Virus record (IMG/VR): IMGVR_UViG_3300028392_000038
Coordinates: 51,973 to 115,972 of that record
Reading direction: 5' to 3' (one strand)
DNA length: 64,000 nucleotides
Source: a virus
A model generated the notes under the pieces. That model saw only the letters and a program-made list of their open reading frames with translations. It was not told where the DNA came from and searched no databases. This document shows positions 2,288-17,131 of this stretch, piece by piece; the stretch's first letter is position 1; every line of letters begins with the position of its first letter. Position numbers and translations under genes: made by a program.

Positions 2288-3013
2288 ATGAGAATTGAAT
2301 GCCAAGATAATTTAATATTTATGAAATCAATAGAAGATAATTCTATTGATGTTATTTATTGTGATATTCTATACGGAACCGGTAGAAAATTTTCAGACTA
2401 CCAAGATTTAAAACCAATCAAATCAGATATTGAAGAACACTATATACCTCGTATAAAAGAAATGCACCGTGTTCTAAAAGAAACAGGAACTATTTATCTT
2501 CAAATGGATACTAAAATAAATCATTGGATCCGTTGTATTATGGATGATATCTTTGGATATGAAATGATGAGAAATGAAATTATTTGGTTTTATAATACCG
2601 CACCAAGAAAGAAAATGGACTTTGGAAAAAGACATGATATAATTCTAAGATATACAAAATCAGATAATTATAAATTTAATCCACCAAGAGAACCTTATTC
2701 ACTATCAGCTCCAAGAGGATATGAAAAAGAAAAATACTACCATCCAGAAGGTAAAGTTATTGGTGATGTTTGGCAAATGAATATATTAGGTCAAAATGAT
2801 AAGAAAGAAAGAGTAGGGTATGATACTCAAAAACCTAAACAACTTATAGAAAGAATTATAACTTCATCTTCTGATGAAGGAGATACAATTGCTGATTTCT
2901 ACTTAGGAAGTGGAACAACAGCTTTAGTTGCTAAAGAATTAAATAGAGATTTTATTGGATGTGATATAAATCCAAAGGCAATTGAACTCACTAATCAAAG
3001 ATTAAATAAATAG
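2288..3013 (+). CDS. DNA adenine/cytosine-N4 methyltransferase (beta-class)
   Basis: The 241-residue protein matches the N6/N4 DNA methyltransferase family. The catalytic motif IV reads DILY near residue 25 (usual form DPPY), in the context IYCDILYGTGR. The AdoMet-binding motif I, FYLGSGTT, lies near residue 205, followed by FIGCDINPKA. Motif IV before motif I fits the beta class. It probably modifies phage DNA against host restriction. The Pro-Pro to Ile-Leu change in motif IV is unusual. The target site cannot be deduced. Confidence 0.8.
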   Translation: MRIECQDNLIFMKSIEDNSIDVIYCDILYGTGRKFSDYQDLKPIKSDIEEHYIPRIKEMHRVLKETGTIYLQMDTKINHWIRCIMDDIFGYEMMRNEIIWFYNTAPRKKMDFGKRHDIILRYTKSDNYKFNPPREPYSLSAPRGYEKEKYYHPEGKVIGDVWQMNILGQNDKKERVGYDTQKPKQLIERIITSSSDEGDTIADFYLGSGTTALVAKELNRDFIGCDINPKAIELTNQRLNK

Positions 3014-3043
3014 ATTCTTCAATTTTATATATAGATTATATAC

Positions 3044-3055
3044 TTTAATATATAA
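3044..3055 (+). promoter_or_regulatory. AT-rich promoter-like box (TTTAATATATAA)
   Basis: One of several TTTAATATATA boxes that sit 5-20 nt before start codons in this window. Here it precedes the ATG at 3059. The placement is reminiscent of T4 late promoters (TATAAATA), but the role is inferred only from recurrence. Confidence 0.4.
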
Positions 3056-3058
3056 TTT

Positions 3059-3961
3059 ATGAACTTAAAGCAAACAAGAGATTACTATAATAATAAACCC
3101 GTTGAATATGTGGTGAGAGAACATTATGAGTTAATTGAAGATAATGAGTATATTCCAAGATTTTCACTTAAAAATGTTAAAGACATCGCTGATATTCCTA
3201 TCAATGAGCCTATTAAATATACTGAAGAAGTTATAAAGAAGTGTATTAAGTATGGTATGGTTATATTAATAAACTATAAAGGTGAAAAAGATTCTCATTT
3301 TGCAGGACATGAAAGGGTTGTTTACCCTATGGTTCTTGGTAAATCAACACAAGGTAAAGTTCTTTTAAGAGGGTGGCACTTAAATGGTTGGTCTGTTTCA
3401 AATAAAAGACATATTAATAAAATCTGGCGTTTATTCAGAGCTGATAGAATTCTATCTGTTACTTTCACTGGTTCTTTTTACCGTTTACCTCCAGCTGGTT
3501 ATAATATGAATGACAAAGGAATGAGAGGTGGTATTATAGTAAAAGCTGACTTTGCTCAAATTAGAAAGAATCAACAAGATTTAGTTAATAAGAATAAAAT
3601 TCAAAATAGAGAAGAGGTTACTCTTGGAGATGAACAAAGAAAATTCATAACTATTAGAGTAAAAGAAACTGATACTAAATTAGATTTAATAAAACCATTT
3701 GAAAATGCTTATATCAATAATTCTAAAGATATGGCAAATGTTAGATTATCATTTCTTAAAAGTGTTTATGGAAATAAATATGTCGCTATATTAGGAGCAC
3801 TTGGTCAACCAGGTAATACTGTTAAAATATTAACAGATAAAGGTTCTCAATTAGGAGTTTATAAAGTATTAGATTCTATTACAGGTGAGGTACTAAAAAG
3901 CATTAAAAATGTAAAAGGAAACACTATTTATGATCTTTATCTGTTTGATAAAAAAGTTTAA
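3059..3961 (+). CDS. Hypothetical protein with WYL-like region
   Basis: The protein has 300 residues. The region around residues 75-145 (GHERVVYPMVLG, VLLRGWHLNGWSV, IWRLFRADRILSV) is reminiscent of WYL ligand-binding domains, with a conserved Arg, a short beta-barrel and the rlfr-drI ending. I cannot confirm the assignment. There is no clear DNA-binding domain, and the C-terminal 120 residues are unassigned. It sits between the methyltransferase and PPK2 on the same strand. Confidence 0.55.
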   Translation: MNLKQTRDYYNNKPVEYVVREHYELIEDNEYIPRFSLKNVKDIADIPINEPIKYTEEVIKKCIKYGMVILINYKGEKDSHFAGHERVVYPMVLGKSTQGKVLLRGWHLNGWSVSNKRHINKIWRLFRADRILSVTFTGSFYRLPPAGYNMNDKGMRGGIIVKADFAQIRKNQQDLVNKNKIQNREEVTLGDEQRKFITIRVKETDTKLDLIKPFENAYINNSKDMANVRLSFLKSVYGNKYVAILGALGQPGNTVKILTDKGSQLGVYKVLDSITGEVLKSIKNVKGNTIYDLYLFDKKV

Positions 3962-3983
3962 AAATAGAATTAATATATAGTTT

Positions 3984-5138
3984 ATGATACAGAATTTTAA
4001 TAATTTCATTAATGAGGAATTAAGAATAGATAAGTTAGATGATAAATCGCTTAATCAATTAAAGTTAAATTTAATGGATAGGTTATCAGAATATAGAACT
4101 TACATTCTTAATAACATAATTTATAATATGGCTACTAATAAAGTAGAGTATAAAGAATTTGAAAACATAGATATTGCAACTATATTAAGAGAACTTAATA
4201 ATGAATTCACAAATGAAGTTGTTCAAGATATGAACATAGAAACTTTTTTAAGAAAGTTAAATCAAATATTAGACCTTCAAAAAAGAAACACTAAAAGAAG
4301 AATAAGAGAAGAGTTTGATGAATATTATAATTCAATTGAACAAAGAGTTTCTAAAATATCTAGAGGTGAAGATGAAGAACATTTTGATGCGGTTGAAGGT
4401 GAAGACTCTTTAATAACTAGAAAACAATATGAAACTGAGAAGTTTGGACTACAAGTTGAATTGTTAAAATTACAAGAATGGGTAGTTAAAAATAAGAAAA
4501 AAGTGGCTATTGTATTTGAAGGAAGAGATGCTGCTGGTAAAGGATCTACTATTAAAAGATTTACAGAATACCTAAATCCAAGAGGATTTAAGATTGTAGC
4601 ACTTGGATTACCAACTGATGAAGAAAAGAAAAATTGGTTTGCGAGATATGAAAAATATATGCCTCAACCAGGTGAAATAGTTTTCTTTGACCGTTCTTGG
4701 CACAATCGATCAATTGTTGAGCCAGCGATGGGTTATTGTTCAGAAGAACAATATATTGACTTCATGAATAATGTAAATAAATGGGAGGATCACTTAGTGA
4801 AAGATGAAGATATTATCTTAATTAAGTTTTGGTTCTCTATCACTAAAGAAAAACAAGAGTTAAGATTTGATTTAAGAAAATCAAACCCATTAAAATATTG
4901 GAAGTTTTCTCCAAATGATGCTAAAGTAATTGATAAATGGGATATTATTGGTAAATATAAAAACCAAATGTTTAGTAAAAATTCAACACCTTTGTGTCCG
5001 TGGGTAATTATAAATAGTAACGATAAAAAGATAGGTAGATTAAATGCCATCAGATATGTACTGAGTGTTATTCCATATGATGGAAGAGATGAAAAATCTT
5101 GTGAATATTACCCAGAAGTTGTAAATATTTTAAAATAA
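3984..5138 (+). CDS. ppk2: Polyphosphate kinase 2 (PPK2) with tagged N-terminal extension
   Basis: The C-terminal ~240 of 384 residues match PPK2, which moves phosphate between polyphosphate and nucleoside di- or triphosphates. The Walker A loop is EGRDAAGKGS (~178-187), the Walker B/lid region is FFDRSWHNRSIVEPAMG (~233), and the late motifs LKYWKFSPNDAKVIDKW and PWVIINSNDKKIGRLNAIR are present. The ~140-residue N-terminal extension is phage-specific and starts MIQNFNNFINEE, a CTS-like tag with INE as a possible cleavage site. If packaged, it could make NTPs from host polyphosphate on entry. The stop overlaps the next ATG by 1 nt. Confidence 0.88.
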   Translation: MIQNFNNFINEELRIDKLDDKSLNQLKLNLMDRLSEYRTYILNNIIYNMATNKVEYKEFENIDIATILRELNNEFTNEVVQDMNIETFLRKLNQILDLQKRNTKRRIREEFDEYYNSIEQRVSKISRGEDEEHFDAVEGEDSLITRKQYETEKFGLQVELLKLQEWVVKNKKKVAIVFEGRDAAGKGSTIKRFTEYLNPRGFKIVALGLPTDEEKKNWFARYEKYMPQPGEIVFFDRSWHNRSIVEPAMGYCSEEQYIDFMNNVNKWEDHLVKDEDIILIKFWFSITKEKQELRFDLRKSNPLKYWKFSPNDAKVIDKWDIIGKYKNQMFSKNSTPLCPWVIINSNDKKIGRLNAIRYVLSVIPYDGRDEKSCEYYPEVVNILK

Positions 5139-15091: not shown

Positions 15092-15610
15092 ATGATTTTG
15101 AAAGAAAAAAGAAAACATAAAATAAACGGAGAAGTTCGCTTTCCTCAAGTTAGAGTTATAGGTGATGATGAACCAATACTGATGAGTTCATATGATGCAT
15201 TTCAATTAGCCAAATCACAAAATAAAGATATTATTTTAATAAATGAAAATCAAACAATACCTATTGTTAAAATAGAACAGTATAATAAATTCCTTTATAA
15301 CTTAGAAAAATCCGAAAAAGAAAAGAAAAAGAATTCAGTAAAGTCTGTTACTAAAGAAATTCAATTAAGTCCTGAAATATCTGACAATGACCTGGGTACC
15401 AAATCCAGAAAAAGTAAAGAGTTTTTAGAAGATGGTAATAAGGTTAAAGTTGTTTTACAATTAAAAGGTAGACAAAAGGCTTCTCCAGAAAGAGGTCAAA
15501 TAGTTATGCTTAAATTTTTTACATTAGTTGAAGAACTTGGTGTTGCTGAAAGTCTTCCTAAATTAGAAGGAAGTAAATGGCATATGATGATTAAGCCAAA
15601 GAAGAAGTAG
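15092..15610 (+). CDS. infC: Translation initiation factor IF-3
   Basis: A full-length 172-residue IF-3. The N-domain has INGEVRFPQVRVIGDDEP and the NENQTIPIVKIEQYNKFLY block (usual form PPVCKIMDYGKF). A Lys-rich linker lies at ~75-90. The C-domain has KEIQLSPEISDNDLGTKSRK, FLEDGNKVKVVLQLKGRQ and a GSKWHMMIKPKKK ending. Cellular IF-3 binds the 30S subunit and proofreads start-codon choice. A phage copy could bias initiation toward phage mRNAs, which here lack Shine-Dalgarno sites. It lies just upstream of the polymerase fragment on the same strand. Confidence 0.92.
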   Translation: MILKEKRKHKINGEVRFPQVRVIGDDEPILMSSYDAFQLAKSQNKDIILINENQTIPIVKIEQYNKFLYNLEKSEKEKKKNSVKSVTKEIQLSPEISDNDLGTKSRKSKEFLEDGNKVKVVLQLKGRQKASPERGQIVMLKFFTLVEELGVAESLPKLEGSKWHMMIKPKKK

Positions 15611-15653
15611 ATTTTAATTTCAAAACTTTCTTTTTTTATTTTATATAAAATGT

Positions 15654-17131
15654 ATGACTAAAGAAGAAAAAATTAAAAAGATAGAGTCATTAAGGAAACA
15701 AGCGACAGAGTTAAAAAAAGAGGTAGACTATTTTAATGCCCTCCAATTAGCCTTGAAGTTGGTACTTAATGGTTCTTATTTTTTACCCCCTATTTTGAAA
15801 AGAATAGGGGGGAAGATTAAGGAGCATTTGCAACAAGCTACTTCATATTATATAATAATCACGTAGCAGGTACAATCACAGCACAAGGCCGTGACCTTAC
15901 CAAAACAATGGATAAGGTTAATGAAGACTATTGGTATAATCAATGGCAAAATGACCATGAACTTCACTATAAAATGGGTATTAAAAACATAACACCTATT
16001 TCAAAAGATGAACATGTTTCTATTTATGCTGATACAGATTCATTATTTGTTTCATTCAAACCAGCAGTAGATCATTGTGACTGGACCAATCTTATATTCA
16101 ATGATGATTATCTTAATTCAGTAGATAAAAAGTTCATCATCCTTTCTAAAGAACTTCCAAAATTCAACAATACTAATTGTGTAGGAACTGCGCATAATAT
16201 TAAAGAGTTTAGTGAACTATTAAACGCAGAACATGAGTTAGTTTTAATATGTGGTAACTTTGTTAAAGATAGAGATTTAGTAAAGATGATTAAATCTGGT
16301 TCTGTAAAGAATGAGATAAAATGGAATTGGTCTAATGAAATAGATTTCATACAAGGATTAGACCATTATAGATATGGTGGTTATTTTAAAAAGTGTTTAG
16401 AAGATTATGCTGGATCTTTTGGTGTAGAGAACAAAGAAGACTTTGAGTTAGAAAGAATATCAGAATCTATTATCAATATTGCTAAAAAGAAATACATTCA
16501 ACATATCTTATTTGAAGATGGTATTCCTTATGATAGATTAAGTTATATCTATCCTAAAGGTGTAGAACTTGTTAGGTCATCTACTCCAGCTTTTGCTAGA
16601 GATAAAATTGTTGGTATTGTTAAATATTTATTCACACATCCTGATACTTTTAATATTAAAGATTTACTAAAACTAGTTAAAGGACTAAGAAAAGAATTTG
16701 AATTGGCGGATATAGATGATATTTGTATGCAATCTTCTGTTTCTAACTATGAAATAAAAGTTCTTAATGATAAGTCATTGCCTTTAAACTTTATAAGTGG
16801 TGCTCACTTTGCGGTTAAGTCAGCAGCTCATCATAACTATCTTTTACTAAAGAGTAAAGAATATCAACAGAAATATGAGTTTATAAAATCAGGTAATAAG
16901 ATTAAATATTATTGTTGTAAAGATAAATCTATAACTGATATGTTTGCTTATACTCGTGGTTCTTTTCCGGTTGAGTTTGCTCCACCTATTGATTATGATG
17001 AACAGTTCTCTAAGTCTATCTTATCTCCTATCAATTCAATTATTGAACCATTAGGAATGCCTGAGATTACTAAAAGGTTGTCGGTGGTGATGGATATTTT
17101 CTCAGGTATGGGTGGAAAAGGAGCTTTTTAA
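15654..17131 (+). CDS. Family B DNA polymerase, C-terminal part, interrupted by a 41-nt insertion
   Basis: The first frame (15654-15866) begins MTKEEKIKK and reaches motif B as LKLVLNGSY. A 41-nt segment (15780-15820) then shifts the frame. The right frame resumes at 15821 as GAFATSYF and runs to 17131, including motif C YADTDSLFVSF (~16025). Joined, NGSYGAF restores the KxxxNSxYG motif exactly. Exonuclease, motif A and palm N-terminal parts are absent from the window, so the polymerase gene is also split between motifs A and B. Without bypass or another recoding event, only the 70-aa first part or a product starting at ATG 15908 could be made. It has its own AT-rich promoter-like region. Confidence 0.75.
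15780..15820 (+). other. 41-nt hairpin insertion inside polymerase motif B
   Basis: The segment splits the codons for NGSY and GAF. It contains a perfect 9-bp stem, CCCCCTATT (15786-15794) pairing with AATAGGGGG (15803-15811), with an 8-nt loop. It ends in TAA just before the resuming GGA codon, creating AAGGAG. The length is not a multiple of three. Size, hairpin and location in a conserved motif resemble translational bypass elements (T4 gene 60, mitochondrial byps), but matched take-off and landing codons are not obvious. Confidence 0.6.

Follow-up and report, generated by a model that had tools for sequence, protein, structure and literature searches.

A 41-nt hairpin insert interrupts the gene for the C-terminal half of a family-B DNA polymerase in a fragment (~116 kb) of a huge-phage genome, and short inserts of the same anatomy recur in the polymerase genes of its relatives, giving 31 distinct interrupted genes. 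From comparison of these sequences we consider it likely, at a probability of roughly 0.8, that the inserts are programmed translational bypass elements, which would form a mobile family in the split polymerase gene of huge phages. The best reading is that the elements sit in homing cassettes, like that of T4 gene 60 and mobA but of different geometry, with the ribosomal jump, the endonuclease cleavage and the homing all putative. An earlier note on this DNA had raised bypass as a possibility, and the comparative evidence from relatives supports it as the best explanation, adding to the note the 5' stem-loop, the constant spacing and the tie to homing endonucleases.

A split polymerase gene interrupted in motif B

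The window, by which we mean the whole 64,000-nt stretch of DNA that was analysed, comprises bases 51973-115972 of a 115,972-base virus record. The features of the interrupted gene are as follows:

15654-15779, + strand: first coding piece, 42 codons (MTKEEK...LKLVLNGSY), where the C-terminal half of the split family-B DNA polymerase begins, reaching as far as motif B
15683-15694, + strand: 5' strand (AGAGUCAUUAAG) of a predicted 5' stem-loop, within coding sequence, pairing with 15765-15776
15765-15776, + strand: 3' strand (CUUAAUGGUUCU) of that predicted 5' stem-loop, immediately followed by the take-off codon
15777-15779, + strand: putative take-off codon TAT (Tyr), the sole boundary restoring the protein in the window gene
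15780-15820, + strand: insert (coding gap), 41 nt, absent from uninterrupted relatives
15780-15785, + strand: spacer TTTTTA, 6 nt, from take-off codon to hairpin; no stop codon in the window, where relatives usually have one
15786-15811, + strand: GC hairpin CCCCCUAUUUU-GAAA-AGAAUAGGGGG, 11 bp, the stem of which covaries across relatives
15818-15820, + strand: putative landing triplet TAA, followed at once by the resume codon GGA; 2/3 positions match the take-off TAT
15821-17131, + strand: second coding piece, 436 codons (GAFATSYF...), the rest of the palm with motif C YADTDS, and the thumb
15618-15816, + strand: tract replaced relative to the near-identical relative L014, with 95-96% identity on both sides and none found inside

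The second piece reopens at 15821 in the -1 frame relative to the first and matches Pfam DNA_pol_B (E = 4.9e-13) and phrog_262 (E = 4e-40 over profile positions 525-839), while the first piece is homologous to the first 42 codons of the intact genes in L007 and L008. The nearest uninterrupted homologues in annotated phage records belong to the huge-phage genomes LR756502 (642 kb; 76% identity) and LR745206 (635 kb; 75% identity), each of which encodes one continuous 474-aa protein with the same start that runs through NGSYGAF, and intact relatives encode LALKLVLNGSYGAF without interruption. These comparisons confirm what the earlier note had claimed, namely that the 41 nt are out of frame and that their removal restores NGSYGAF; the rest of the gene, motif C included, is intact, as it had also stated. 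Of the perfect 9-bp GC-rich stem that it described, the hairpin stands and the length does not. On the landing side, TAA followed by GGA is present as described, and the AAGGAG to which it drew attention is not shared among relatives. The predicted fold of 15765-15840 has a free energy of -30 kcal/mol, compared with -14.5 +/- 2.96 in shuffles (z = -5.2; 0/200 shuffles as low). No copy of the exact insert or hairpin sequence was found outside this record.

Since the homologues in LR756502 and LR745206 are continuous 474-aa proteins with the same start, the interrupted gene represents the C-terminal half of a polymerase that is split in the fingers region, and it is because the polymerase is split into two genes that the window gene starts just 42 codons before the insert. 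The N-terminal half is a separate gene of ~515 codons, with the exonuclease domain and DFASLYPT, that lies ~40-130 kb away in relatives; it was not found in the 116-kb window record. A second intact polymerase, which the earlier note held would speak against bypass, was not seen, as neither a second family-B nor a family-A polymerase is visible in the longest relatives.

In L118, L052, L056, L060, L070, L196, L198, L011 and L012 the polymerase half is split again at motif C (YADTD/S) by an apparent split intein, the N-part of which starts CHKDSLIRTDSG... after YADTDS and the short C-part of which, ending ...ANDILVHNS, opens a separate gene (in L118, the intein-like parts are at 1218-1800 and about 2900-3050). 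Some of these motif-C-split genes also carry a bypass-type hairpin. It is conceivable that the interruption in motif B is a third split of an already split polymerase, analogous to that made by the split inteins, with two pieces made separately and assembling without a covalent link. This is highly implausible, however, as the first product would be a 34-42-residue peptide, the break would fall in the motif B helix at six alternative places, and no start is conserved at GAF in the second piece.

Anatomy of the inserts and the codon rule

Comparison with related phage genomes, a check that the earlier note had proposed, revealed similar inserts in about 30 relatives and an uninterrupted gene in others. 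Scanning viral contigs with the downstream protein, an alignment and three divergent members returned the same set, and the census looks near saturation. With near-identical contigs counted once it comprises the 31 distinct interrupted genes, window included (~34 contigs show the anatomy), and the short hairpin insert is found in more than half of the distinct polymerase genes, the others being uninterrupted. No relatives were found in bacterial and archaeal genomes. The inserts fall at six codon boundaries within a 27-bp stretch, after codon 9, 10, 13, 16, 17 or 18 of the block [DE]YYNALQLALKLVLNGSY and after codon 33-42 of the gene across the family. They are 36-48 nt long, with lengths modulo 3 of 0, 1 and 2 in 9, 14 and 8 elements, respectively (n = 31). 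Excising each insert restores the conserved peptide exactly, in a form compatible with the uninterrupted relatives, in 31/31 genes; a single conserved protein is encoded across two ORFs that are out of frame or separated by a stop, as in bypass of the T4 gene 60 type.

Because the frame class differs among elements, no fixed frameshift or readthrough explains the inserts. For the window itself, ordinary -1 frameshifting at T TTT TTA (15779-15785) might seem attractive, as a canonical-looking slippery heptamer lies in the right frame directly before a hairpin that could drive it. We rejected this candidate, the probability of which is negligible, because the shifted frame hits TAA at 15818-15820, directly before GGA, and does not continue into the downstream ORF. 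Moreover, the heptamer is not common to relatives, and each of the three frame classes is represented among the inserts, some of which are in frame and contain stops. An intrinsic terminator was rejected by inspection (the U run lies ahead of the hairpin, behind which there is no T run), as was a multi-copy genomic repeat upon a search of 28 records, in which CCCC...GGGG pairs are scarce; among the few such pairs in interrupted records, one is nearly always the polymerase element.

An assembly or sequencing error, which the earlier note had allowed for, is highly improbable. The exact window insert is in one record only and the inserts of the near-identical L044 and L045 (near 3930-3976) are one base apart in a G run, but the same anatomy, with differing and covarying sequences, recurs in ~34 contigs from many samples. 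The extra G in L044 (42 nt vs 41 nt in L045) changes the frame class between these strains, which is either real or a homopolymer error.

The earlier note also left room for gene inactivation, in which a recent parasitic hairpin would have reduced the downstream part to a decaying remnant, and the window element does break the family rules in having no spacer stop, no codon match and a weaker 5' stem-loop. Nevertheless, both pieces are open in all interrupted genes examined, so that ~30 relatives keep both halves intact, and downstream dN/dS values of 0.03-0.17 in the closest interrupted pairs point to strong purifying selection. With the long relatives yielding no further polymerase of family B or family A, inactivation is very unlikely for the family. 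The only evidence bearing on the window itself is the comparison of its downstream part with that of L013 (dN 0.003, dS 0.081), from which we infer that the window element is functional as well.

The elements share one order of parts, consisting of a 5' stem-loop in coding sequence, an abutting take-off codon, 5-6 nt usually with a stop, the GC hairpin, and a tail that ends in the landing triplet. The GC hairpin is present in 31/31 elements and starts 5-6 nt past take-off. Its 5' strand is C-rich, usually with five Cs, and its sequence varies freely with the pairs kept, which amounts to strong covariation. A take-off stem-loop is also a hallmark of T4 gene 60-type bypass, though the geometry here is unlike that of T4. 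When every nucleotide offset is considered, a single boundary fits 31/31 elements, namely the codon end 5-6 nt ahead of the hairpin, and the window and L043 admit no other. U is the last base of the take-off codon in 29/31 elements; a stop is the first codon of the spacer in 4/31 and the second in 23/31, and is absent in 4/31, including the window. A lysine-rich start, considered as a candidate nascent-peptide signal, lies ~30 codons upstream of take-off, but in uninterrupted genes as well.

Coding sequence alone forms the 5' stem-loop, which abuts the take-off codon and shifts along with the site, as exemplified by L033 (site 10, GAGCGAGUUGAAG/CUUCAACUCGCUC) and L037 (site 18, GAAUCAUUGAGGAU/AUCCUCAAUGGUUC). 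Compared with synonymous reshuffles, its z values are -2.8 to -8.3 in 28/31 interrupted genes, the exceptions being the window (-2.0), L022 (-1.7) and L025 (+1.2; absent). The window duplex (-10.9 kcal/mol) has 10 Watson-Crick and 2 G-U pairs by inspection, 7 bp of which are in the computed fold, and is weaker than that of most relatives. Among 19 uninterrupted genes, the stem-loop is present in one (L036, site 10, a Leu site, just upstream of 4001; z = -4.3), where it perhaps marks an element since lost or a site that could receive one. For the Leu-site class, 86% of cells in the 5' helix are paired, four pairs have two-sided changes, and the covariation score was reached by 0/500 shuffles; sliding the helix partner by one to three columns lowers pairing to 27-41%. 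The duplex measure gave no signal for the T4 gene 60 5' stem-loop (z = +0.9), which was used as a positive control, and the measure therefore fits the present geometry only and is no general test of bypass. The L025 element (3953-4000), a 48-nt Tyr-site element lacking the 5' stem-loop, has a hairpin that takes in the spacer and reaches the take-off codon; L024 has the same hairpin core, though their first exons differ by 26%.

At the Leu, Ala, Val, Ser and Gly sites, take-off codon and landing triplet encode the same amino acid in 23/23 elements (and are identical in 6), the pairs being CTT or CTG to CTA, GCT to GCT or GCA, GTT to GTT, TCT to TCA, and GGT to GGT, versus a background of 7.3% for a synonymous triplet elsewhere in the same inserts. 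As the elements are related, the product of the match rates is not a real probability; still, five amino acids obey the rule. Leu-site landing codons are always CTA, and it is perhaps relevant that a U-ending take-off codon would pair weakly by wobble and CTA would pair by Watson-Crick rules with a U34 tRNA. Synonymous landing is a prediction of one P-site tRNA re-pairing, whereas excision of the insert from the mRNA gives no reason for it.

Such an excision, in which a very short structured RNA is removed and the exons are joined by a ribozyme or by a phage or host nuclease and ligase, is unlikely, although it explains exact removal in every frame class equally well. The exon sequence folds together with the insert, a structure-specific cut would be consistent with the constant spacing of hairpin and boundary, and the Tyr class would then require no matching landing codon. 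The excision reading nevertheless leaves the synonymous codons at both ends (23/23, five amino acids) unexplained, gives no account of why the sole common boundary is a codon end, and finds no support in the window as a conserved ribozyme core of a self-splicing intron, given the absence of any Rfam family match there and the 41-nt length of the insert. To our knowledge, inserts of 36-48 nt are far below any known self-splicing intron in length, which also argues against excision.

The poor match between TAT and TAA, which the earlier note had recognized, is a property of the Tyr-site class. None of the eight landing triplets in this class, window included, matches the take-off codon (TAA, AAC, AGC, AAC, AAC, CAA, TAA and GAC), and the bypass model does not account for this mismatch. 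We count it against bypass, together with the sense codon that follows take-off in most elements, the missing spacer stop, weaker 5' stem-loop and lack of an adjoining endonuclease gene in the window, and the missing stem-loop in L025.

In the bypass mechanism that we propose, the GC hairpin 5-6 nt past take-off would reach the mRNA entry of the ribosome and stall decoding. Stem-loops reaching the ribosome can hinder A-site tRNA binding (PMC7282821), which fits a hairpin 5-6 nt beyond the P-site codon. The peptidyl-tRNA would then detach from the take-off codon, and the strong 5' stem-loop would form behind the ribosome, drawing the mRNA through as the ribosome slides over 36-48 nt. The same tRNA may re-pair on the synonymous landing triplet (the Tyr class excepted), after which translation would continue in the second exon.

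Mobility and the upstream endonuclease genes

On a tree of 43 proteins, the presence or absence of the insert shows hardly any clustering and demands 14 changes or more, of which well-supported branches force at least 9. Downstream, the window and L013 are nearly identical, yet they carry different hairpins at sites 18 and 9, respectively, their divergence being 28.8% in the first exons and 3.5% downstream of them. L070 and L073 have the opposite pattern, with 0.8% divergence in the first exons and 8.7% downstream. Given this discordance, first exon and insert travel together as a cassette, and the different histories of the first exon and the remainder amount to the co-conversion of flanking sequence expected of collaborative homing. 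Identity between the window and L014 is 95-96% up to 15617 and again from 15817 onwards, and the tract between, which comprises the gene start, the first exon and nearly the whole insert, has been replaced. In L014 the replaced tract also contains a 375-aa antisense gene that matches PHROG homing-endonuclease families.

An endonuclease-like gene, mostly antisense, lies directly upstream at 18/31 interrupted loci versus 0/22 intact loci (Fisher p = 4e-6, a naive value that overstates independence, as many elements are related). L057 has a GIY-YIG/NUMOD3 gene at the upstream position instead. In the window no endonuclease gene lies beside the element, and the upstream neighbour is translation initiation factor IF-3 (15092-15610; Pfam IF3_N and IF3_C). 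IF-3-like ORFs are also found just upstream in several relatives, e.g., L016, L018, L021-L025 and L053. In L048 and L049, where the gene is uninterrupted, remote relatives of the upstream endonuclease family lie on its other side, ~1.4 kb downstream from GAF.

The element probably lies inside the recognition site of the free-standing endonuclease encoded upstream, and the positions of the inserts within a 27-bp stretch suggest that the endonuclease would cut the intact allele and spare the interrupted one. The insert may in this way protect the polymerase gene from cutting by the endonuclease encoded just upstream in most carriers, and the element and first exon would spread via homing-type gene conversion.

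Comparison with known systems

T4 gene 60, a small gene of a split topoisomerase, is interrupted after codon 46 by a 50-nt gap and has a stop, a 5' stem-loop, a take-off stem-loop and a homing-endonuclease gene nearby, and ribosomes slide over such a gap with high processivity if it is < 56 nt (PMC5009743, PMC11194080). The polymerase elements resemble gene 60/mobA (NC_000866) in occupying the short C-terminal gene of a split replication protein, in lying early in that gene (after codon 33-42 vs 46), and in having a gap of < 56 nt, usually a stop near take-off, 5' and take-off stem-loops, and a homing-endonuclease gene nearby. In T4, however, the take-off GGA and the stop lie inside the take-off hairpin, whereas in the polymerase elements the take-off codon is unpaired between two stems, with the hairpin 5-6 nt further on. 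Also unlike T4, the landing triplet is synonymous with take-off but often a different codon (with a mismatch throughout the Tyr class), and take-off is mostly followed by a sense codon. There are 31 polymerase elements at six sites versus one element in T4, the host gene and endonuclease family differ, and the endonuclease gene is mostly antisense.

The mitochondrial byps of Magnusiomyces capitatus, 81 inserts over 12 genes that are reportedly largely independent of mRNA context (PMC5009743), are likewise numerous short frame-disrupting inserts in essential genes with a take-off/landing match that is sometimes imperfect, but the polymerase elements are confined to one gene and have a strict structural context. 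In collaborative homing, an insert shields a gene from a neighbouring free-standing endonuclease, as described for F-CphI and the psbA intron of cyanophage S-PM2 (PMC6083498). That arrangement also has a free-standing homing endonuclease adjoining an insert that would protect its target; the psbA insert, however, is a self-splicing group I intron, whereas the polymerase insert is a 36-48 nt hairpin without ribozyme features. A 29-nt hop reported for a Prevotella loescheii adhesin gene (PMC5009743) is, like the polymerase elements, a candidate bacterial bypass, but it is a single case with no follow-up and, unlike them, has no family or endonuclease. We found no description of such elements in huge phages in our searches of open-access full text.

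As T4 gene 60 is the one well-studied phage case of ribosomes skipping a coding gap, its rules have been inseparable from its accidents. In one essential gene, the ~31 elements spread over six sites, for which intact relatives serve as controls, constitute a natural series from which testable rules can be drawn: a hairpin 5-6 nt past take-off, an abutting 5' stem-loop, a synonymous landing codon, and a stop that is useful but not required. Gene callers will break such interrupted genes. If our reading is correct, bypass elements would behave like introns or inteins in endonuclease-linked homing cassettes.
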